A stretch of 49,581 nucleotides of DNA, from NCBI GenBank assembly GCA_019745975.1, contig JAIESQ010000054.1:1-49581 (forward strand). The letters are read 5' to 3'. The notes beneath the pieces were generated by a model, which saw only the letters and a program-made list of their open reading frames with translations, did no database searches and was not told the DNA's origin. The stretch is from Pirellulales bacterium. GTDB lineage: Bacteria > Planctomycetota > Planctomycetia > Pirellulales > JAEUIK01. Shown here piece by piece: positions 3,376-43,386 of the stretch. Both the position numbers and the translations under genes were made by a program. Within the stretch, counting starts at the first letter, position 1, and each line of letters begins with the position of its first letter.

Positions 3376-4724
3376 AGCAAACACTCCCGCAGTGGCTTGG
3401 CATCGGGATCGGCAAGGCGGATTGGCCGCCCGACGTTCGACGTATTCTGCTGCATGGGATCAAGGCCCAGGGCCAAGAGGATCGTCGCGAGCAGATCGGG
3501 GACGGAGACTGGTCGATCGGCGACCTCCTGGCCGTCGTCGCTGGTGCGCCCGATGACTTGTCCGCCGCGAATACCGCCCCCCGAGAGCACTGTCGACCAG
3601 GCATTGGGAAAGTGATCGCGTCCCTGATTGTTGTTGATCTTGGGAGTGCGGCCAAATTCCCCCATCCAGACGACGAGGGTCGAGTCGAGCAAGCCGCGCG
3701 CTTTGAGATCGGCCAAGAGCGTGGCCCAACCATTATCGAGCACCGGCAGCATCGCCTCGAGTGTTTTGAAATTGTTCTGATGCGTGTCCCAACCGAGGAT
3801 ATTGCCGGCCGCCGCGCTGTTCAACGAAACCTCGATAAAGGGCACGCCCCGCTCGATGAGCCGGCGGGCGAGCATGCAGCCTTGACCAAAGGCGTTGCGG
3901 CCATACGCGTCGCGTAACGCGGCGGGCTCGTCCTCGAGTTCGAAAGCCCGCACCGCCGTCGAACGCATCATGCGATCGGCCTGGTCGTAGGCTGCCACGT
4001 GGCTGAGCGGCGCGGCGCCCGGATGCAGGTGGGTGAAGTCGTGCTCCAAGTCGCGCAGCAGGGCCAACCGCGCATCGGCTTGCGAGCGTTCGATCCCATT
4101 CGCCAACGACAGGTTGGGAACCTTCAACTGGTCTTCGTAGGCCGCGTTGGCCCCGGGTTGGGGCACGATCGGAATGCCTCCGCCGACCATCAACGGGGCA
4201 TACCGGGGGCCCAAGAATCCCGGCCCGAACGCACCGGGGCTGATAAAGGGAACGCTCCCGATCGAAACGCAGTTGGGAAGCTCGGCCGCTTCATCGCCGA
4301 GCGACTTGCCGATCAGCGGCCCCAAGGAAGGATAGGCGACCGGCCCGCTCGGCTGGTAACCCGTGCGCAACAAGTAGGTCGCCCGGGTATGGTCTCCTTC
4401 CTTGGTGCTCATCGAGCGGATCAACGCCAACTGGTCCGATGATTGGGCCAGCCGCGGCAAATGCTGGCAGATCGAGATGCCTGGCGTCGCGGTTTGGATC
4501 GCTTGAAAGGGGCCGCCATGTTCGTGGCCCGGTTTGGGATCGAACGTATCCAACTGGCTGGGACCACCCGCCATCCAAAGCAGAATGCATGCCCGGCGGC
4601 GGTGCCGGTCGGCGCTCGTGGCCGCGGCCAGTTCCGCGAGCCAGCCACTTGCCGAGACTCCCAATCCACCCGCCAGAGAGAGCCGCAGCCATTGGCGGCG
4701 TGAAAAACGCATGTGGCGTGACAC
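3372..4724 (-). CDS. DUF1501 family protein, Tat-type leader
   Basis: 450 residues. The N terminus carries a twin-arginine-like leader (SRRQWLRLSLAGGLGVSASG). The rest matches DUF1501, a planctomycete-expanded family with an alkaline phosphatase/sulfatase-like fold: ILLWMAGGPSQLDTFDPKPG near residue 50, WDTHQNN near 310, and VVWMGEFGRTPKINNNQGRD near 350. The catalytic reaction of DUF1501 proteins is not established. The start is GTG 4724, with GGAGG seven bases upstream. Its stop overlaps the EF-hand gene start by four bases. In these bacteria DUF1501 genes normally follow a DUF1549/DUF1553 gene, as here, which implies a joint exported function. Confidence 0.93.
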   Translation of the reverse strand: MSRHMRFSRRQWLRLSLAGGLGVSASGWLAELAAATSADRHRRRACILLWMAGGPSQLDTFDPKPGHEHGGPFQAIQTATPGISICQHLPRLAQSSDQLALIRSMSTKEGDHTRATYLLRTGYQPSGPVAYPSLGPLIGKSLGDEAAELPNCVSIGSVPFISPGAFGPGFLGPRYAPLMVGGGIPIVPQPGANAAYEDQLKVPNLSLANGIERSQADARLALLRDLEHDFTHLHPGAAPLSHVAAYDQADRMMRSTAVRAFELEDEPAALRDAYGRNAFGQGCMLARRLIERGVPFIEVSLNSAAAGNILGWDTHQNNFKTLEAMLPVLDNGWATLLADLKARGLLDSTLVVWMGEFGRTPKINNNQGRDHFPNAWSTVLSGGGIRGGQVIGRTSDDGQEVADRPVSVPDLLATILLALGLDPMQQNTSNVGRPIRLADPDAKPLRECLL

Positions 4725-4801
4725 GTGCAGCCCTCCCCCGATTGCTTGCTAGTTGATGTCGCCAGGCGAGGCGCTTTCGCGCCGGCGCGGTCGTCGGAAG
4801 T

Positions 4802-6505
4802 TTAATGGTTGAACAGGAACTCGCTTGAATTCAACAGCGCCCAGAGAATATCGCCGAGCGCTTCATCGCGGTCTTGTCGCGCGCCGCCGCTGGCCAGGTA
4901 CGGCTCAAGCCTGGCCAGCTCTTCGTCGCGCGGCGGCCGCGACAGCGTGGCCAGATAGAGCGTTTCGATCCGCGCGCGATCGTCGAAGCCGGGATAGTTC
5001 GCGACCGCCCCCAACGTCCAGCTCCGCGGCACCGCCGTGGCATCGGCCACGACCTGCCCGTTCATCAGCGCCATCGCCTGGATGATCGACGTGTGATAGT
5101 CCAGCGGCCGGTCGCGCTGATTGGCAAACGTCTCCAAGAACGTCGCACGCGGGGAATTGTACGCGAGCACGAATTGCCCCAAATCGCCAGCCGGATCGCG
5201 AAAGCCGATAGCCAAGGCCAGGCTGTCGAACAATTGTTCGGCCGATAGGCCGCGCACCGGCATGGCGGCGAACTGCCGTGGATCGCGCTCTGGGGCGTCA
5301 CGCACCGCGCTCGAAAGCTGGTACGCGCGCGATGAGGTGATCGCGCGGATCAGGTGCTCCCAGCGAAAGTCATGGCTGGAAAATTCCGCAGCCAACACGG
5401 CCAATAGCGCCGGATGGCTCGGTTGGTTGTGCTCGTCGAAGTCGTCCACCGGGTCGACCAACCCGATTCCGAAGAAGTGCGCCCATAACCGATTCGCCAG
5501 TGCCCGGGCAAAGAGCGGATTGCCCCGCGCGGTGATCCATTCGGCCAGCTTGCCGCGGGCCGAGGCTCCGTCGGTCCACTCGGGCGCCGTGCCATCGAGG
5601 AACGCCGCCGACACGGTGCGCTCGGTGTCAGGAACTTTCAATTCATGTTTCTCGGCAACCTCCTTGAGTGGCGAGAATGGCTGGTCGGGTTGCTGCCGCT
5701 CGATACCGCTGAAGAATCCCGCCAGTTGCCAGAACTGGTCCTGCTTCCAATGCGCGAATGGATGATCGTGACATTGCGCGCATTCCAGCCGCACGCCCAA
5801 CAGCGCGCGGGCCGTGCTGGCCGCGAGATTCTCCGGCTTGCCTTCCTTGGCGAAGTAGTAACTGATGGGGCCGGCGTTCTCCTGGCCGAACGGATTGCCG
5901 TTGTTCTGCATCTCCGGAAGCGGAACCGTGAGCAACTCGCGCACCAGCGCATCGTAACCAAGCCCTTCGCGCAGTCGCTTGCGCAACCAGGCCTCAAATA
6001 TCACGGCCACGAAGCGCACTTGCAGGTTGGCGTCGGCCTCGGGCAAGAGCATCGCCCGCCAGGTGCGCGCGAAGTGATTGGCGAACGCCGGCCCGACCAG
6101 CAGGCGATCGACGAGACGCTGCCGACGATCGGCGGACTCGTCTTCGAGGAAGTCACGCGCCTCGGAGACCGACGGGATGCGCCCCGCCAAGTCGAGGTAC
6201 ACACGTCGCAAGAACTCCGCGTCGCTGGCCAGTTCGGCGGGCGTGACACCCCCGGCCTGCCAGCGTGCCGCAAGTTCCTGATCGATGAGGGCCGTCAACG
6301 GCTGGGCCGCCCTCCACGCCGCCGCGCTATCGGGAACAGTCGACATTGCAGTTGATGCAGCGGCAGCCGGTGCGACGCTCCCATCCGTTGACACCGCCGC
6401 GTCGGCAGCAGCCACACGGCGCACTATCAACAAGGCGGCGGATACCACACCAACCCAGCAAATCGTCGCGCCAACGACTCGTGATCTCTGTACCTTAGTA
6501 GACAC
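4802..6505 (-). CDS. DUF1549/DUF1553 (PSCyt2-PSD1) exported protein
   Basis: 567 residues from the chosen start. A hydrophobic leader (about residues 7-27, WVGVVSAALLIVRRVAAADA) is followed by DUF1549 (about 70-290) with the CAQCHDHPF motif, a CxxCH site at residues 242-246, and then DUF1553 (about 330-560; LANRLWAHFFG, SSAFNQ-like region and a terminal NSSEFLFNH). Unlike the longer paralogue at 9250 it lacks the N-terminal PSCyt1 cytochrome-like domain. GTG 6505 is preferred because GGAGGTG lies just upstream and it gives a compact signal peptide. A longer reading from GTG 6580 overlaps the previous stop as GTGA but has no Shine-Dalgarno. It is second in the minus-strand operon of exported proteins. 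Confidence 0.92.
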   Translation of the reverse strand: MSTKVQRSRVVGATICWVGVVSAALLIVRRVAAADAAVSTDGSVAPAAAASTAMSTVPDSAAAWRAAQPLTALIDQELAARWQAGGVTPAELASDAEFLRRVYLDLAGRIPSVSEARDFLEDESADRRQRLVDRLLVGPAFANHFARTWRAMLLPEADANLQVRFVAVIFEAWLRKRLREGLGYDALVRELLTVPLPEMQNNGNPFGQENAGPISYYFAKEGKPENLAASTARALLGVRLECAQCHDHPFAHWKQDQFWQLAGFFSGIERQQPDQPFSPLKEVAEKHELKVPDTERTVSAAFLDGTAPEWTDGASARGKLAEWITARGNPLFARALANRLWAHFFGIGLVDPVDDFDEHNQPSHPALLAVLAAEFSSHDFRWEHLIRAITSSRAYQLSSAVRDAPERDPRQFAAMPVRGLSAEQLFDSLALAIGFRDPAGDLGQFVLAYNSPRATFLETFANQRDRPLDYHTSIIQAMALMNGQVVADATAVPRSWTLGAVANYPGFDDRARIETLYLATLSRPPRDEELARLEPYLASGGARQDRDEALGDILWALLNSSEFLFNH

Positions 6506-33117: not shown

Positions 33118-34077
33118 TCAGTTCGCCCCAGCGGTAGTGCCTTGCATCGCGTCACGCACGGCGATGTTGAGCTCGAGCACGTTAACCAGCGGAACTCCGG
33201 CCACTCCTCCGAGCGGGGCATGCGCGTGCTCGTCGATGAGTTTCTCGATCGTTTGCCTCACCGTGGCCGGATCGCGCTGGCGAGCTTCCGCCCAGGCCGC
33301 GGAGACCCGTTCTAATTGGTACTTGGCGCCCTTGACTGTGATATCCGGATCGAGACCACAGCCAGACGCCATCACCAGATCGGACGGCACCTTCTCGACG
33401 TCGGCATCGGCGTGAGCGTTCCACCACGCTTCGAAGAACGCGCTCTGTAAATCCTCGCCATTGGTCTCGGGCCAGGTCGTCGATTGGCCGTTGGCATAGC
33501 TCGCAAAGAACAAACCCGCCAGATCGGCCGCGGTCGCCTCGGCACCCTCTTCGGCACCAGCGCGCCATTTCGCGACGTCATCGGGATGCTCACTCGCCCA
33601 CTTCGTGACGAATTCGTCGTTCGCGCTATCGGCAGCGACCCACCACGCCGACAGATCGGGTGTGACTTCGTGCCATTGTGCGAGTACTTTCGGGTTGGCT
33701 CTCAGTTGTTCCCGCACCCAACTGGCGACATCGGGACCAACCGGCTCGCCGCTGCGGTACTTCAGCACCAAACCAAGCTGCTTCAAGACGCGCTTGCGGA
33801 GATTGGGGTTGTTCGCTCCCCAGTTCGAGCCGCCAGTCGCCGCCGCGTTGTACGAAACGGCCGATGGGCGGGGCTGAAAGTACCTGGCGTCGCGAAACGG
33901 CTGCGCGATCAAACGCGAACCGACGACATTGCCCTGGGCGTCCTTCAGCAGGCTTCCTTCGGCCTTCTCCGCGAACAGAACCCGGCCGACCCCAAGCAAC
34001 ATTGCGGGATAAGCAACAGCGCCAATTGCAATCGTCAGCACCAATAACCAGAGATTAGCACGAACATGCGCATTCAT
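33118..34077 (-). CDS. kdpC: Potassium-transporting ATPase subunit C with a large insertion
   Basis: 319 residues, against about 190 in Escherichia coli. The N-terminal membrane helix (LWLLVLTIAIGAVAYPAMLL) and the conserved blocks GSRLIAQPF, YFQPRPSAVSYN, TGGSNWGANNPNL and, near the C terminus, MASGCGLDPDITVKGAKYQL and VPLVNVLELNIAV are all present. Between NPNL and the GLD block lies about 115 extra residues rich in Trp, Ala, Asp and Glu (for example LAQWHEVTPDLSAWWVAADS). KdpC stabilises the KdpFABC complex and contacts KdpB; the insertion is placed to face the periplasm (inferred). GGAG lies nine bases upstream of the ATG, and the gene begins 25 bases after kdpB. Confidence 0.95.
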   Translation of the reverse strand: MNAHVRANLWLLVLTIAIGAVAYPAMLLGVGRVLFAEKAEGSLLKDAQGNVVGSRLIAQPFRDARYFQPRPSAVSYNAAATGGSNWGANNPNLRKRVLKQLGLVLKYRSGEPVGPDVASWVREQLRANPKVLAQWHEVTPDLSAWWVAADSANDEFVTKWASEHPDDVAKWRAGAEEGAEATAADLAGLFFASYANGQSTTWPETNGEDLQSAFFEAWWNAHADADVEKVPSDLVMASGCGLDPDITVKGAKYQLERVSAAWAEARQRDPATVRQTIEKLIDEHAHAPLGGVAGVPLVNVLELNIAVRDAMQGTTAGAN

Positions 34078-34102: not shown

Positions 34103-36367
<2,265 letters not shown>

Positions 36368-36404: not shown

Positions 36405-38219
36405 TTAGCGACCGAACGGGAGCGGGCCAAGGTGCTCGGCCACGGGACCGAGCACTGCCGCCGGCAGAAACAACAGTGCGCCAACCAGCACGACCGTGCC
36501 GAACAACACGCACCCAAACGTGACGTTGTCGGTCCGCAAGGTTCCGGCCGTCAGCGTCGTCCGCTTCTTCATCGCCAGGCTGCCGGCGAAGGCCAGCGGC
36601 GCAATGATCGGCACGAAGCGACAGACGACCATCACCAGGCCGCAGGCGATATCCCAGTGAACCGCGTACGGCGCGGGCGCCGCGTTGTCGTTGAATCCGT
36701 AGGTGTCCGCCAGGCCTTCAAAACCTGACCCGTTGTTGGCCGAAGCCGACGAAAACTCGTAGAGAATCTCCGAAAAGCCGTGCGGACCGGGGTTGTTCAG
36801 CGATTTCGCGCCCCAGTCGAGCGCCGCGAACAGACCGGTCGGCCCCAGGATCATCAGGGGATGAACTAGCAACGCGAGCATCGCCAGCTTCATCTCGCGC
36901 GCTTCAACCTTCTTGCACAGGTACTCGGGCGTGCGACCGACCATCAGGCCCGCCAGGAACACCGCGACGATCAGGTAGATCAGCAGATTGATCAGCCCGA
37001 CGCCGACACCGCCGAAGATGCAGTTGAGCCACATGCCGGCTAGCGGCGCCAATCCAGCCAACGGATTCAAGCTATCGTGCATCGCGTTGACCGAACCGTT
37101 CGACGTGCAGGTTGTCGACGCGGCCCAAGTCGGGCCGGCTGACGTGCCGAATCGCAACTCCTTGCCTTCGTGGTTGCCCAACGCCTGATCGACCGGCAAA
37201 CCGGCCACCGCTGGCAGCGGCACGTCGCGCCGGCCACCCGCGGCCGCGGGATCGTCGATCGTGAACTCGCGCTCGGCATGGGCGACCAGCCCCGGGTTGC
37301 CCTGCGTAGAGTCGAAGTACACCGCCCAACCGAGGAACGCGGCATAGAAGACCAGCATCACGCCAAAGATCACAGCGGCGTGCCGGAGATTGCCGAGCAT
37401 CCGTCCGAACATGACGACCACCGCCATCGGCAAGAGCATGATCGAGATGTTCTCCAGCACATTGCTCCAGTCGCTCGGGTTTTCGAACGGGTGCGTGCTG
37501 TTAGGGCCAAAGAACCCGCCGCCGTTGGTCCCCAGTTGTTTGATCGCCACGATCGCCGCCACGGGACCGCGCGCGATAGTTTGTGGCAATGCGGTGCCGG
37601 CCTCGTCGCTCCCCATCGCGCCGGGATCGAGCGTCGTGACCGCGAAGTTCCCGTCCAGCGTCATCGGCATGCCGCAGGCCATCAGCAGGATCGCCAATAC
37701 GACGGCGATTGGCAGCAAGACATAGGTCGTGGCCCGCCACAGGTCGACGTAGAAATTGCCCATGTGGGCGTCGCCGCGCAATCCGCGCGTAATCGCCCCA
37801 AGCGCCGCCAGACCGATGGCAGGCGTATGAAACTGCTTCCAGCAAATCACAAACAACTGGCTGAAGTACGAGAGGTGTACTTCCCCCGAGTAGTGCTGCA
37901 AATTGGTGTTACTCAAGAACGAGCACAATGTGTTGAAGACTGTCGTCGGCGAGAGCATTCCCTTGTGGTCGGGGTTCAGCGGCAGATACGGCTGTAAAGT
38001 CAGGATCGCGAAGCCGACGACGAACGCGACTACGTTCCAGATCAACATCGCCACGGCATACTGTTTCCAGTTCTGTGGCCCCGTGTCGATCCGTTGCTCG
38101 ATCCATGAAAGCCAGCCGGGGAGATGGGCGCGACCATCCATCGTGCGGGCGACATAGAAGCCCAACGGGATCGCCAGCGCGATCATCGTGCCGACAAGGA
38201 AAATTGGCAGCGTCCACAC
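36405..38219 (-). CDS. kdpA: Potassium-transporting ATPase subunit A
   Basis: 604 residues, ten or more membrane segments. It is the channel-like potassium-binding subunit. The four pore-loop filters are visible: [13 protein letters not shown] near residue 105, [20 protein letters not shown] near 230, [14 protein letters not shown] near 375 and [14 protein letters not shown] near 490. A short extracytoplasmic insert with acidic and Arg residues precedes the third filter ([19 protein letters not shown]). The start is GTG 38219, 21 bases after the kdpF stop. Confidence 0.97.
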
Positions 38220-38240: not shown

Positions 38241-38321
38241 CTAAAACCATTCGGGGCGCAGGAGCGCCGCCGTCAGATAGACAAGCAGCAGCACCGTGAC
38301 CACGGTCGTGAGCAGAATCAT
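38241..38321 (-). CDS. kdpF: KdpF, single-helix stabilising subunit of the Kdp pump
   Basis: 26 residues: one transmembrane helix beginning MILLTTVVTVLLLVYLT and ending in the family hallmark LLRPEWF. It begins at ATG 38321 with GAGAGG upstream, inside the kdp operon directly before kdpA. KdpF stabilises the KdpABC complex in the membrane. The closing motif, size and position make the identification firm despite the length. Confidence 0.92.
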   Translation of the reverse strand: MILLTTVVTVLLLVYLTAALLRPEWF

Positions 38322-38331
38322 CACAGCCCTC

Positions 38332-38427
38332 TCAGACTTGGTTACAAGCCGCCACGAAGGCGAACATCAGGCCCAAGGCCGCCAGCCCCAGGATCAAAAC
38401 CGTCGGTATCCAAACAGCCAGATTCAT
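38332..38427 (-). CDS. 31-residue membrane peptide leading the kdp operon
   Basis: ATG 38427 to TGA 38332. The peptide begins MNLAVWIPTVLILGLAALGL and ends VAACNQV, so it is essentially one hydrophobic helix with an N-terminal Trp and a polar C-terminal cap. AAGG lies eight bases upstream of the ATG. Its stop codon lies within the purine run that serves as the kdpF ribosome-binding site, so the two genes look translationally linked. It lies between the sigma-54 promoter and kdpF. I recognise no named family. A partner or regulator of the Kdp complex is the simplest inference. Confidence 0.7.
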   Translation of the reverse strand: MNLAVWIPTVLILGLAALGLMFAFVAACNQV

Positions 38428-38491: not shown

Positions 38492-38507
38492 AGCAAGCGT
38501 CATGCCA
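38492..38507 (-). promoter_or_regulatory. Sigma-54 (-24/-12) promoter of the kdp operon
   Basis: On the minus strand the sequence is TGGCATGACGCTTGCT, against the consensus TGGCACGnnnnTTGCW. The invariant GG (-24) and GC (-12) are present with the required ten-base gap, and only one specified base differs (T for C). Transcription should start near 38482, about 55 bases before the small membrane-peptide ATG. The divergent gene encodes a sigma-54 activator, which makes a chance match less likely. Confidence 0.75.
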
Positions 38508-38626
38508 GCGGTCGCGCATGGCGACGAACTCCACACGAGGGATGGCTTAAGAGAAAAAGCCCTCGCAGATATCAGCTCGTGGAGTTTGCAATTTACCGGG
38601 CCGTCCTTGCAGAATGCAATGATTGC

Positions 38627-38848: not shown

Positions 38849-40180
38849 ATGAACGTCCTCTTAATCGACGACGACGACGGCCTGCGCCGCACAACGCGGC
38901 TGGCGCTCGAGGCCATGCAGCATCAGGTCTCCGAGGCACGCGGCAGTTCGCAGGCGCTGGAGCTGGCCGGACATCGCAAGTTTCAGATCGCCCTTTTGGA
39001 CCTGCGTCTCGCCGCAGAATCGGGCCTCGAATTGCTGCCGCAACTGTTGGCCCTGGCGCCCGGCTTACAAGTGGTGGTCATAACAGCCTACGCGACGATC
39101 GAAACCGCCGTCGAGGCGATGCGGCGGGGAGCAGTCGACTACCTGCCCAAGCCATTCACGCCGAGCCAGTTGCGCCTGGTGTTCGATCGCATCGCGCGTG
39201 TGCGCCGTCTCGAATCGACGGTCTCCGAGCTCGAAGAGCGCGTTCGCGCCGCGGTTCCCGAGGTCGATCTGCAAACTCAGGAGCCGGCGATGCAGCAGAC
39301 GCTGGAGGTGGCCTTCAAGGCGGCCCCTAGCGAGGCTGCCGTCCTTTTGCGTGGCGAGAGCGGGACCGGCAAGGGCGTGCTCGCGCATGCTATCCATGCT
39401 CGCAGCCGTCGCGCCGATGCCCCCTTTGTGACGGTCGCTTGCCCGGCACTTTCCGCGGAACTCTTGGAGAGCGAGCTCTTCGGCCACGTCACAGGCGCCT
39501 TTACGGGAGCGGTGCGCGACACCCTCGGTAAGGTTGCGGCAGCCGAAGGGGGCACGCTGTTCCTCGACGAGATCGGTGACCTGCCACTGGGCTTGCAGCC
39601 GAAGCTGCTGCGGCTCTTGCAGGAGAAGCGCTACGAGCGCGTGGGCGAGATCCGCACCCGCGCCACCGATGTCCGCGTCGTGGCCGCCACGAATCGCAAG
39701 CTGGAAGCCGAGATTCAAGCGGGTCGCTTTCGTGAAGACCTCTTCTACCGCCTGAACGTGATCGAGATCACGATGCCGCCGCTGCGCGACCGGCCGCGCG
39801 ACATCCTGCCGCTAGCGGAGAACCTCGCCGCCTTCTTCGCCCGCCAAAGCGGTAAACTTGTCAGCGGTTTCACGCCCGAGGCAAACAGCGCACTGGAGCG
39901 GCACTCGTGGCCGGGCAATCTGCGCGAACTGCGCAACGCCGTCGAACGCGCGGTGATCCTCGGTTCGCAAACGATCCTCGGCCTGGCCGACCTGCCCGCT
40001 TCGATTGGGCATTCGCTAGCCACCGGGGTCGAGGTTGGCTGCCGCGTAAGCCTCGAGCAATTGGAGCAAGAGCACATCCGCCGCATCCTCGGCGCTACGG
40101 CCACAATGGAGGAAGCGGCGCAGGTGCTCGGCATCGATCCCAGCACGCTGTGGAGAAAGCGTAAGCGCTTCGGCCTATGA
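38849..40180 (+). CDS. Sigma-54-dependent response regulator (NtrC family)
   Basis: 443 residues from ATG 38849. The receiver domain (1-120) has the acidic cluster DDDD at 7-10, phosphoacceptor D51, the Thr in VITAYAT and Lys in YLPKPFTP. The AAA+ domain (about 145-370) has Walker A GESGTGKG at 169-176, the sigma-54 contact GAFTGA at 216-221, Walker [11 protein letters not shown] and the arginine-finger region [10 protein letters not shown] Fis-type helix-turn-helix ([20 protein letters not shown]) closes the chain. It starts the regulator operon that is divergent from kdp, in the place normally held by kdpE. The long frame upstream of the ATG is not used. Confidence 0.95.
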
Positions 40181-40241: not shown

Positions 40242-42152
40242 ATGATCGCGCTTCGACACCGCATTGCTCTGACGCTGCTACCGCTGCTCCTGCTGGTGGC
40301 AATCTTCGGAGGTTTCGGCATTGCACTTCTCTCCCGCGTCGGCGGGCGCATCGATCAGATCCTCCGCGAGAACTATGCCAGTGTCATCTATATGGAGCGC
40401 TTGAGAGAAAACCTCGAACGCATGGATTCCGCGTTCCAGTTCGCGCTGGCAGGGCGTGAGCCGGAGGCCCGAAAGCAGTTCGACGACAACTGGCGGCTGT
40501 TTCTCGAGCACTACGACGCAGAGCGACGGAACATCACCTTGCCCGGCGAGGGGGAACTCGTCGCTCGACTCAATCGACTCGGAGAAGGTTACCACCATCA
40601 AGGTATGCAGTTCTTCGGCAGCACCGACGCTGAGTTTCGCCGTAACGCCTACTTCGACCAGGGAGGCTTGCTGGCCACGTTCAACGAGATGAAGGACGCG
40701 GCCGATCAGATAGCGCGGATGAATCACGACAACATGACGCAGGCCAATCGCGAGGCGCGCCAAACCGCCCGCTCGTCGCTCGTGTGGTTTGGTGTTGGCG
40801 CCGTCCTGGTGACACTCCTGGGCGTCTTCCTGGCTCGTCACACGATCAACACGATTCTGCGCCCCATTACCAGCGTGACCGAATCGGTCGCGGCGATCGG
40901 TGCCGGCGACCTGGATCAGTTGGTGCCCGTCGTCTCGAACGACGAGCTCGGTCAACTGGCTGGCGCCGTCAACACCATGGCGCGGCAGCTTCGCGACTAT
41001 CGTCAGTCGCAGAAAGCGCGGTTGCTGCGGATTCAACAGGCCGCTCAGGCGACGCTCAATTCCTTTCCCGATCCGGTGCTGGTCGTCGATCGTGATTGCC
41101 AGATCGAAATGGCCAACCCGGCGGCGCGGCGCGTGCTCGGGCTGCCGATCGCCGACCGTCCTGGCGCCGCTCCCATCGTCTGGCGGCCTCCCGCGGTGCT
41201 CGAACATCCGCTAACCGAGGCCCTCCAGGCTCAGCAGGCTTTTTTGCCGGACGGGTTCGACCAGGCGGTGTCGTTGCGCTGCGGCACCGGCGAACGCGTT
41301 TACCTGCCGCGAATTCTTCCCATTAGCGAGCCCTACGGCGGCACCCTTGGAGCGGCCATCTTGCTGGCGGATGTCACGCGGTTCCAGTTGCTCGATCAGA
41401 TCAAGAGCGATCTGGTGGCGACGGTCAGCCACGAGCTCAAGACGCCCCTTGGCAGCATCAGCATGGCGATTCACTTGTTGTTGGAAGAGGCCGTCGGACC
41501 ACTGAACGCCAAGCAGCTCGAACTGCTGATCGAGGCGCGAACCGGTTCCGAGCGCTTGCTGGCCATGATCAATAACCTGCTCGATCTCGCCAGGTTGGAA
41601 AAGGGAGCGAGTCACCTGGTCGTCCGGCCCGAAAGTACCGCCGCGCTGCTGCAAGCCGCCGCCGAGCTAGTCCAGCAACGCGCCGCGGATCAGGGGGTCG
41701 AAATCGTGACGAGCGCCGCGGCCGACCTGCCGCCGATCGCGGTCGACAGTCACGTGATCGGCCATGCTTTCCGGAACCTGCTGGACAACGCCCTCACCTA
41801 TACGGAACAGGGCGGGCGCATCGTGTTGTCCGCCGCGCTAGGTGGCGATCAAATCCAGGTCACGGTCAGCGACACGGGAGTCGGCATCCCGCCCGAGCAC
41901 CTGCCACACGTTTTCGATCGCTTCTTCCGCATCCCGGGGCAAAGCCGGGGGATCGGCACCGGACTGGGATTGGCCATCGTGCGGGAGATCGTCATCGCCC
42001 ATGGCGGCGGCATCGAGTGCGCGAGCAAGCCTGGAGTCGGCACGACTTTTCGCATGACGTTGCCGGTTTGGCACGAGCCGCCGCGCGAGCTGCGCGCGGC
42101 AGACGACCATGCCGCACCAACTTCAGACAGGGCCGCAGCGTCGCCTTCCTAA
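40242..42152 (+). CDS. Membrane histidine kinase with HAMP and PAS domains
   Basis: 636 residues. TM1 (about 8-30), an extracytoplasmic helical sensor (about 32-180, with RLRENLERMDSAFQFALAGR), TM2 (about 182-204), a HAMP domain (ILRPITSVTESVAAIGAGDL), and a PAS-like domain (SFPDPVLVVDRDCQIEMANP, about 265-370). HisKA has SHELKTPLG with phosphoacceptor His397, and HATPase_c has NLLDNALTYTE, DTGVGIPPEH and GIGTGLGLAIV. It starts 61 bases after the response regulator gene, so the two form a two-component pair. It should supply the kinase activity that the truncated KdpD next door lacks. Confidence 0.95.
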   Translation: MIALRHRIALTLLPLLLLVAIFGGFGIALLSRVGGRIDQILRENYASVIYMERLRENLERMDSAFQFALAGREPEARKQFDDNWRLFLEHYDAERRNITLPGEGELVARLNRLGEGYHHQGMQFFGSTDAEFRRNAYFDQGGLLATFNEMKDAADQIARMNHDNMTQANREARQTARSSLVWFGVGAVLVTLLGVFLARHTINTILRPITSVTESVAAIGAGDLDQLVPVVSNDELGQLAGAVNTMARQLRDYRQSQKARLLRIQQAAQATLNSFPDPVLVVDRDCQIEMANPAARRVLGLPIADRPGAAPIVWRPPAVLEHPLTEALQAQQAFLPDGFDQAVSLRCGTGERVYLPRILPISEPYGGTLGAAILLADVTRFQLLDQIKSDLVATVSHELKTPLGSISMAIHLLLEEAVGPLNAKQLELLIEARTGSERLLAMINNLLDLARLEKGASHLVVRPESTAALLQAAAELVQQRAADQGVEIVTSAAADLPPIAVDSHVIGHAFRNLLDNALTYTEQGGRIVLSAALGGDQIQVTVSDTGVGIPPEHLPHVFDRFFRIPGQSRGIGTGLGLAIVREIVIAHGGGIECASKPGVGTTFRMTLPVWHEPPRELRAADDHAAPTSDRAAASPS

Positions 42153-42246
42153 CAAGGGTCCGTGCGAGATGCGCAATACACAAGCCACCCATTGCCGGTC
42201 ATGCGACAAGGCTGCGACGAAGCCGCGACGTAGCGAGGGTTGACCC

Positions 42247-43386
42247 GTGGCCAGCGACGGTCTGCAGCGAACGCCCGAGCAATTCGTCGAATTGATTCGC
42301 CGCCAGCAACGCGGGCGACTCAAGATCTATCTCGGCTTCGCGGCCGGCGTGGGCAAGACCTACGAGATGCTGCTCGAAGGGCAGCGGCTCAAGCGACAAG
42401 GCATCGACGTCGTCGTCGGCATGGTCGAAACGCATGGTCGCGCCGAAACCGCAGCGCAAATCGGCGATCTCGAGCTCATGCCCCGGCGCAAGATCCAATA
42501 TCACGGGGTTGAGCTCGAAGAACTGGACGTCGATGCCCTCCTCCAGCGGCATCCGACCGTCGTGCTCATCGATGAGCTCGCCCACACCAATGCACCGGGC
42601 AGCCGCAACAGCAAGCGCTATCAGGATGTCGAAGAGTTGCTGCGCGCCGGCATCCATGTGATCGCCACGCTCAACATTCAGCACCTGGAGAGCCTGCACG
42701 ATATTGTCGAACAGGCCACGGGCGTGCGTGTCAAGGAACGGATTCCCGACTACGTCGTGGGCATGGCCGACCAGCTCATCAATGTCGACGTATCGGCCGA
42801 GGATCTGCGCGAACGCCTGCAGGCCGGAAAGATCTATCCCGCCGACCGCATTCAAACGGCGCTCGACAACTTCTTTCAGCTCACGCATCTCAATCAACTG
42901 CGCGAGCTGGCCATGAAGGAGATCGCGCATCGGCTTGGGCAACACACCCTCACGCAAACCGGTCCAACCGAGTCCAATCAATCGGAGCGGATCGCGGTGG
43001 CACTCAGCTCGCGCAGCCCGAATTCGGCGATGCTCTTGCGCAAGGCGTCGCGACTGGCCGACCGCTTCGACGCGCCGTGGTACGCGGTCTATGTGCAGAC
43101 TCCCCAGGAGACGATTCACCGCACCGACGCCGCGACTCAGCGCCAAGTGAGCAATGCACTCGCCTTGGCGCGTCAACTGGGGGGGACGCCGCTGGAATTC
43201 AAGGGGACCGATGTCCCCAGCACGATCGCGGCCTTCGTCAAGGAATACGGCATTTCGCACCTGGTGCTGGGGCGCACGCAGCGACCGTGGTACCAGCGCT
43301 GGTTCGGTCGCTCGACGCTCAATCAGTTGCTCCGCAAAATTCCCAATGTCGACGTGGTCGTGGTCGAAAGCTCGGGCGAGGCGTGA
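42247..43386 (+). CDS. kdpD: Stand-alone KdpD sensor part (ATP-binding and universal-stress domains, no kinase)
   Basis: 379 residues covering only the N-terminal cytosolic half of KdpD. Walker A GFAAGVGKT is at 30-38, VVLIDELAHTNAPGSRN near 105, and HVIATLNIQHLESLHDIVEQ near 135. A universal stress protein (Usp) domain follows (about 248-376; LALARQLGGTPLEFKGTD, HLVLGRTQRPWYQRWFG). No membrane helices, HisKA or ATPase domain follow; the stop is intact and the next 300 bases hold no kinase. In the Usp domain SRS (255-257) is followed after exactly 20 residues by WYAVY (278-282), resembling the reported SxS-X20-FTAxY c-di-AMP-binding motif of Staphylococcus aureus KdpD. It follows the histidine kinase gene by 94 bases. 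Confidence 0.93.
   Translation: MASDGLQRTPEQFVELIRRQQRGRLKIYLGFAAGVGKTYEMLLEGQRLKRQGIDVVVGMVETHGRAETAAQIGDLELMPRRKIQYHGVELEELDVDALLQRHPTVVLIDELAHTNAPGSRNSKRYQDVEELLRAGIHVIATLNIQHLESLHDIVEQATGVRVKERIPDYVVGMADQLINVDVSAEDLRERLQAGKIYPADRIQTALDNFFQLTHLNQLRELAMKEIAHRLGQHTLTQTGPTESNQSERIAVALSSRSPNSAMLLRKASRLADRFDAPWYAVYVQTPQETIHRTDAATQRQVSNALALARQLGGTPLEFKGTDVPSTIAAFVKEYGISHLVLGRTQRPWYQRWFGRSTLNQLLRKIPNVDVVVVESSGEA

Follow-up and report, generated by a model that had tools for sequence, protein, structure and literature searches.

In Desulfovibrio vulgaris, the regulator DVU3334 has its own kdp operon as a target, and two open reading frames (ORFs), one for KdpD/UspA and one for a kinase, take the place of a single KdpD; the DVU3334 site is conserved in two more species (Rajeev et al. 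2011, PMC3333781). We take DVU3334 to be sigma-54-dependent by elimination, as it is not listed with the seven regulators that belong to other families. The KdpD domain has been described as an atypical serine kinase that phosphorylates S162 of KdpB; short forms made of KdpD and Usp domains exist, and the short KdpD of Deinococcus geothermalis phosphorylates KdpB with stimulation by cyclic di-AMP (c-di-AMP) (Silberberg et al. 2024, PMC11018627). The c-di-AMP motif of the Usp domain has been given as (A/G/C)-X-S-X-S-X2-N and Y/F (PMC8214093; earlier form in PMC4686210). In Deinococcus radiodurans, the N-terminal KdpD part (KdpD-N) is encoded apart from a sensor kinase and a response regulator, the latter being required for kdp induction (PMC5716572). 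Here, a stretch of 49,581 nucleotides from a Pirellulales bacterium (assembly GCA_019745975.1, contig JAIESQ010000054.1), called the window below, was analysed for its kdp locus. It resembles D. vulgaris DVU3334-DVU3339 in combining a regulator, a separate kinase ORF and a KdpD-N/UspA ORF with kdp genes, the short serine-kinase KdpDs in having KdpD and Usp domains only with the catalytic residues kept, and the split KdpD of D. radiodurans and cyanobacteria in having KdpD-N separate from sensor kinase and response regulator. We propose that two regulatory jobs are probably carried on separate chains in this locus, the sensor-regulator pair serving kdp transcription and the short KdpD serving shut-off of Kdp, an emergency potassium pump.

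Locus organization and the short KdpD

Regulator, kinase and short kdpD genes follow one another on the + strand, divergent from kdpFABC on the - strand:

33118 to 34077, - strand: kdpC, 319 residues, long form (PF02669, E 2.1e-51, in two stretches with an insertion between)
34103 to 36367, - strand: kdpB, P-type ATPase (TIGR01497, 978 bits) with motifs TGES (target serine) and DKTGT
36405 to 38219, - strand: kdpA (PF03814, E 4.1e-202)
38241 to 38321, - strand: kdpF, 26 residues (PF09604, E 1.1e-7)
38849 to 40180, + strand: NtrC-type response regulator, 443 residues, with receiver, sigma-54 AAA+ domain with GAFTGA, and Fis-type helix-turn-helix
40242 to 42152, + strand: membrane histidine kinase, 636 residues, with four-helix sensor flanked by two likely transmembrane segments, HAMP, PAS, HisKA (H397) and HATPase
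42247 to 43386, + strand: short KdpD (KdpD-N), 379 residues, with KdpD and Usp domains and without the transmembrane/GAF/kinase half

The kdpB start at 36367 was chosen by us, the ORF being open to 36517; its TGES motif aligns to E. coli S162. The outer coordinates of kinase and KdpD in a first-pass annotation of this DNA (40242 and 43386) proved exact, and its description of a KdpD that stops after the ATPase-like sensor and Usp domains was borne out by Pfam, which placed PF02702 at residues 21-229 (E 4.5e-93) and Usp at 247-373 with no domain beyond. Pfam and motif searches also agreed with that annotation on a separate upstream kinase with its own sensor and PAS domain and on an NtrC-type partner, the regulator having all three features by which that type was defined. 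A full-length kdpD elsewhere in the genome, which the annotation had named as an observation that would speak against it, was searched for, and the single PF02702 match in the genome (rated 99.94% complete) was the short KdpD of the window. Genome-wide, one rpoN match, one diadenylate cyclase and two PTS EIIA-type matches were found. The top NCBIfam match of the window KdpD was NF038185 ('KdpD-like non-kinase potassium sensor', KdpD_non_kinase) at 372.5 bits, under the curated cut-off of 550 bits, which marks the protein as related to that family and not as a member.

The window KdpD retains K37, T38, D109, E110 and R190 (E. coli numbering), with Walker A (G-X5-GKT) and the Walker B Asp-Glu present; of the pair that holds adenine (W39 and R190 in E. 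coli), position 39 is Tyr, likewise in 82 of 87 full-length KdpDs. On the side of the pump, E161 and S162 of KdpB are retained in 11/11 loci that have both a sigma-54 regulator (sigma-54 loci) and KdpB, the window included. Because serine-kinase residues and the KdpB target serine are retained, KdpD-N is likelier to act on the pump than on the kinase, and, judged from these residues, a post-translational brake of the Kdp pump is the likelier role.

Relatives were taken as the best 80 of 586 confirmed loci in the species collection; among these, the nearest KdpDs were seven from Planctomycetota at 62-69% identity and four from other phyla at 54-56%, the rest lying at 41-46%. A maximum-likelihood tree was computed for the N-terminal regions of 65 KdpDs (all 33 kinase-less and 32 of the 87 full-length ones from the first round of loci), and a branch with 100/99 support parted 27 rows on the side of the window from 38 rows. 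The window side held 16 sigma-54-linked KdpDs, the short KdpDs of Deinococcota and cyanobacteria and other kinase-less KdpDs; the other side held all 32 full-length KdpDs and six kinase-less ones, namely five of 644-668 residues and L077 (L and G numbers denote loci and genomes of the comparison). L077 (447 residues) runs up to the edge of its contig and probably represents an interrupted full-length KdpD; it was counted among the 72 kinase-less loci given below. The root is the midpoint, and the order of origin of short and full-length KdpD is not readable from it. The first-pass annotation had suggested that the missing kinase half seems to be replaced, and a loss followed by replacement was not supported: recent loss is unlikely because the 100/99 branch parts the window KdpD from all 32 full-length KdpDs, and the trio is not the product of a frameshift because the same three genes recur, for example in L031-L035, L037, L113 and L115. 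Both the branch and the repetition of the arrangement in related genomes speak against a full-length KdpD that was recently truncated or frameshifted.

Association of regulators with KdpD types

A receiver-bearing ORF of the stretch that lacks a sigma-54 domain (phmmer, window domains) was counted as a non-sigma-54 regulator, whatever its DNA-binding family. Rows L001-L030 (short flanks) and L112 (copy of L032) were left out before counting. In the first round (120 loci), the 87 full-length KdpDs, of which 62 came from the best-80 list and 24 were planctomycete, were accompanied by a non-sigma-54 regulator in 85 cases and by a sigma-54 regulator in 0; a sigma-54 regulator was found beside 16 of the 33 KdpDs lacking a kinase domain. 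In Verrucomicrobiota (phylum of the L039 genome; 10 of 22 full-length frames taken), sigma-54 regulators accompanied 0/10 full-length and 5/10 kinase-less KdpDs, and in Thermodesulfobacteriota (phylum of the L040 genome; 11 of 13 frames taken) 0/11 and 12/29, respectively. Single sigma-54 cases came from Hydrogenedentota (L043) and Bdellovibrionota (L093). In total, a sigma-54 regulator was present in 0/108 full-length-KdpD loci versus 33/72 kinase-less loci (70 distinct, L162 and L185 being copies of L039 and L040 that were removed from the gene-order and 600-base promoter tables). The 39 kinase-less loci without a sigma-54 regulator comprised short contigs, the class of ~640-690 residues, and Deinococcota, cyanobacteria and Acidobacteriota with other regulators. 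Within the family of the window, two of six genomes (G005 and G006; L124 and L125) carry a full-length KdpD with a non-sigma-54 regulator, and the PF02702 search gave no match in four of the six.

Distances were correlated over 15 loci for four pairs (KdpD-regulator, KdpD-kinase sensor, KdpD-kinase core and regulator-sensor); the coefficients were 0.835-0.887, and 0/2000 permutations were as high for each pair. Co-inheritance of regulator, kinase and short KdpD is supported by these values, and shared descent accounts for part of the correlation.

In L111 (1364-13707), one kdpABC is flanked by KdpDs of both types, the full-length one accompanied by a receiver ORF of the non-sigma-54 kind and the short one by a 459-residue partial kinase; no sigma-54 regulator was found in that stretch.

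Predicted promoter and regulator sites upstream of kdp

Three elements were predicted between the two divergent gene groups:

38492 to 38507, - strand: predicted -24/-12 (sigma-54) promoter TGGCATGACGCTTGCT, directed at kdp
38586 to 38598, - strand: predicted regulator site 2 (enhancer), 91 bp ahead of the -24 box
38607 to 38619, - strand: predicted regulator site 1 (enhancer), TTGCATTCTGCAA, 21 bp from site 2

With a -24/-12 matrix made by hand from the consensus, 38507-38492 ranked first among all sites on either strand of the window (17.1, next 14.2), and 1/1000 shuffles of the 730-base upstream region reached this score. A composite of two GTGCAATTTGCAA dyads at a distance of 21 bp (23 bp in L113), followed by a -24/-12 box, was present in eight loci, the second dyad beginning 90-92 bp ahead of the -24 box; kdp lies downstream in seven of them (window and six related loci) and another membrane gene in L035. 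A dyad motif derived from the seven loci besides the window gave the window composite a score of 32.4 and the next independent place in the 49.6 kb (both strands) one of 14.9, and two of the window's three best single dyads sit in the composite. In regions outside the motif set, the composite was found ahead of kdp in L153 (38.2), from the L033 genome, in which regulator, kinase and KdpD lie away from kdp, and in L154 (45.8), from the L036 genome; 70 full-length-KdpD loci had a maximum composite score of 9.1 and a median of 0.45. By prediction, with these regulator sites and the -24/-12 promoter upstream, the kdp region has the features of NtrC-type control as by DVU3334.

The sigma-54 score alone, taken over the 600 bases before kdpA, was rejected as a weak indicator: it was at least 12 in 6/25 sigma-54 loci versus 0/92 full-length loci (Mann-Whitney p 0.0007), yet 15/25 sigma-54 loci stayed under 9. 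The 600-base limit overlooks distant promoters.

Sensor of the histidine kinase

Pfam placed HAMP at residues 202-252, PAS at 272-381, HisKA at 388-455 and HATPase_c at 504-609 of the kinase. For sensor residues 1-210, AlphaFold2 predicted two long helices and a four-helix bundle with a mean pLDDT of 87.7; the two long helices likely begin and end in the membrane, as judged from the sequence. Structure searches with the full-length kinase model were filled by the kinase core. The nearest solved folds of the sensor include LytS-N (5xsj; Z 17.9, root-mean-square deviation (rmsd) 1.5, 118 residues aligned), chemoreceptor ligand domains such as MCP2201 (9kup; Z 17.0, rmsd 1.4, 124 aligned), HK9 and KinB, mostly at 7-15% identity. 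The KinB sensor (4llc; Z 13.7, rmsd 2.2, 124 aligned) was one of many four-helix bundles matched. Pfam gave 4HB_MCP below cut-off only, and Foldseek returned nothing at E 0.001 or better. The sensor was assigned neither to the KinB/AlgB group nor to any other family because many four-helix bundles fit about equally and Foldseek was empty at E 0.001. Among plasmid relatives of the kinase, a Parabacteroides match lies beside a sigma-54 regulator; it was set aside, as the 13.4 kb seen hold nitrite-reductase genes and no kdp.

Proposed mechanism and alternative explanations

Gene content, co-inheritance, the composite of sites and promoter, the conservation of the catalytic residues and of those in the target, and the presence of genes for RpoN and a diadenylate cyclase were computed here; from them a mechanism is predicted, in which kinase-to-regulator phosphotransfer, DNA binding by the regulator, serine phosphorylation of KdpB and the signals are the steps that we infer. 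On the side of transcription, the four-helix-bundle HAMP-PAS kinase would phosphorylate the NtrC-type regulator, which would then bind the two dyads ~100 bp upstream of the -24/-12 promoter and drive sigma-54-dependent transcription of the kdpFABC operon. On the side of pump activity, the short KdpD would act as an atypical serine kinase on the TGES serine of KdpB, and this phosphorylation would shut the pump when potassium is ample; the shut-off signal would probably arrive through the Usp domain of KdpD, with c-di-AMP as the leading candidate.

Several observations weigh against this proposal. The sigma-54-linked KdpDs are not one clade, their label needing six changes on the tree; of the 16 sigma-54 loci, one has E110 replaced by Asp and three carry another residue at position 39 (Thr, Cys or His). 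The c-di-AMP motif of the Usp domain is present at 4/5 positions, two alignments disagreeing on the failing position, which is ambiguous over one indel. The window kdpD-N lies in the regulator operon, whereas in the split systems of PMC11018627 it comes after the pump genes. The composite was spotted by eye, and the window was among the eight loci from which the limits for dyads and spacing were afterwards fixed for the search. The chosen promoter is weak in L032 (7.3), L034 (5.0) and L037 (6.3), and L032 has a stronger -24/-12 match (14.4) elsewhere; the second dyad of the window is weak on the kdp strand (6.5), and in L114 a distance of 213 bp separates the dyad pair from the -24/-12-like site. 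Nor does a promoter score decide the matter by itself, the full-length loci L049 and L109 reaching 13.5 and 13.4 in 730-base regions. The composite is missing in L119, L120 and L121 (scores of at most 8.1), that of L043 is not among the matches listed, and in the L093 and L039 genomes the region around kdpA is without it (L151, 9.4; L152, 0). More distant sigma-54 loci do not have the composite, which is therefore regarded as a feature of the window's own branch. In L035 it precedes the membrane gene (4055-4936, - strand), and kdpA of that genome (L150) is without a composite; possible reasons are a different target of the regulator in L035 or a mixed genome bin.

A reading that overlaps with the proposal, and that we consider unlikely, has KdpD-N acting on both KdpB and the kinase, coupling shut-off of the pump to shut-off of transcription. 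Gene adjacency and catalytic conservation agree with it, but the second contact is not demanded by the sequence, and adjacency also agrees with plain co-regulation. If KdpD-N had both targets, one Usp-borne signal would close both the pump and its promoter. No less doubtful is an extension of this dual action to a lineage across several phyla in which KdpD was never a histidine kinase: the serine-kinase KdpD with its sigma-54 pair would be an older, independent control cassette of kdp and full-length KdpD/KdpE a later fusion, KdpD-N would hit KdpB and the kinase, and a sister branch would have fused an EIIA-type PTS domain as another input.

The first-pass annotation had suggested that KdpD-N is a cytosolic modulator of the neighbouring kinase. 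As the sole role of the protein, this is improbable; KdpD-N would then tune the kinase between its kinase and phosphatase activities and in this way pass Usp-borne signals on to the regulator. Contact with the kinase draws some weight from the gene order: kdpD-N adjoins the kinase gene in 21/31 loci, including all seven without kdpA in the stretch, and the two overlap or nearly so in several (gaps of -11 bp in L034, -8 bp in L035 and 2 bp in L032, starts called by script). Against it, 4.3-4.6 kb separate the kinase gene from kdpD in 10/31 loci, where kdpD shares the strand of kdpA (and comes after kdpC in L043, L164, L165 and L167, the four displayed of those 10), the kinase with its own sensor, HAMP and PAS looks complete, and the conserved serine-kinase residues and KdpB target, neither of which a pure modulator would need, point to the pump.

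That the kinase/regulator pair is a mere neighbour unrelated to kdp, with kdp otherwise regulated or constitutive, would fit a sensor that is a generic four-helix bundle without known ligand, a trio without kdpA in the fetched stretch in 7/31 loci and a composite that precedes another gene in the L035 genome, but it is highly improbable given that the composite stands ahead of kdp even where the trio is unlinked (L153) and that a sigma-54 regulator goes with kinase-less KdpD in several phyla.

Further features of the locus and its relatives

One more ORF was noted ahead of kdpF:

38332 to 38427, - strand: unnamed hydrophobic peptide, 31 residues, conserved

Its core reads approximately GLMFAFVxAC, and look-alikes were seen in L031, L032, L037, L113, L115 and L153, kdp being unlinked from the regulator in the last. 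Pfam gave no family above cut-off for the peptide; it is possibly an extra small Kdp subunit. By eye, L032 and L113 appear to have an extra small ORF between the sigma-54 promoter and the 31-residue peptide/kdpF. The window KdpC owes its two separate conserved stretches to a big insertion; KdpC is also long in L111 (350 residues) and L113 (343 residues), and mostly 186-215 residues in full-length-KdpD loci. Foreign origin was considered from base composition, which gave no signal (GC 0.618-0.656 for the kdp genes, 0.642 for the window).

In 5/5 tested, sister KdpDs of ~550-566 residues have a PTS_EIIA_2 domain at the C terminus in addition to KdpD and Usp:

L043, 8938 to 10593: KdpD-Usp-PTS_EIIA_2 protein
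L119, 9083 to 10783: KdpD-Usp-PTS_EIIA_2 protein
L167, 9287 to 10969: KdpD-Usp-PTS_EIIA_2 protein
L040, 1335 to 3011: KdpD-Usp-PTS_EIIA_2 protein
L038, 890 to 2548: KdpD-Usp-PTS_EIIA_2 protein

Full-length KdpD has EIIA-Ntr (PtsN) as a binding partner in trans in several bacteria (PMC9239096), so these proteins look like a natural fusion of KdpD with that partner.

Comparison with known systems

The E. coli KdpDE system shares the pump and the KdpD-N domain with the window; E. coli has one full-length KdpD followed by KdpE, which is without a sigma-54 domain, and the window is not of this type. Short-KdpD stretches of D. radiodurans, Allomeiothermus and Synechococcus contained no sigma-54 regulator, unlike the window, and they differ from it further in having KdpD-N after the pump genes. 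In PMC11018627, the commonest split pair has a kinase with transmembrane, GAF and DHpCA parts, whereas the window has a four-helix HAMP-PAS kinase and a sigma-54 regulator; the words 'sigma' and 'Planctomycet' are absent from the main text of that paper. In the literature searched for a link of sigma-54 or NtrC to kdp, which mostly excluded subscription papers, PMC3333781 alone was pertinent. D. vulgaris has its genes in one operon, whereas in the window an operon of regulator, kinase and KdpD diverges from kdpFABC, the comparison of the two systems covering genes and their arrangement. For the lineage of the window, the proposed control of kdp is a sigma-54 two-component system with defined, predicted sites, and the two KdpD activities would be naturally separated in this locus, which could help to find out to what input the serine-kinase half responds. 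Both halves of the proposed system are known from other bacteria, and we therefore regard the locus as a well-supported new example with newly predicted sites, and not as a new kind of system.

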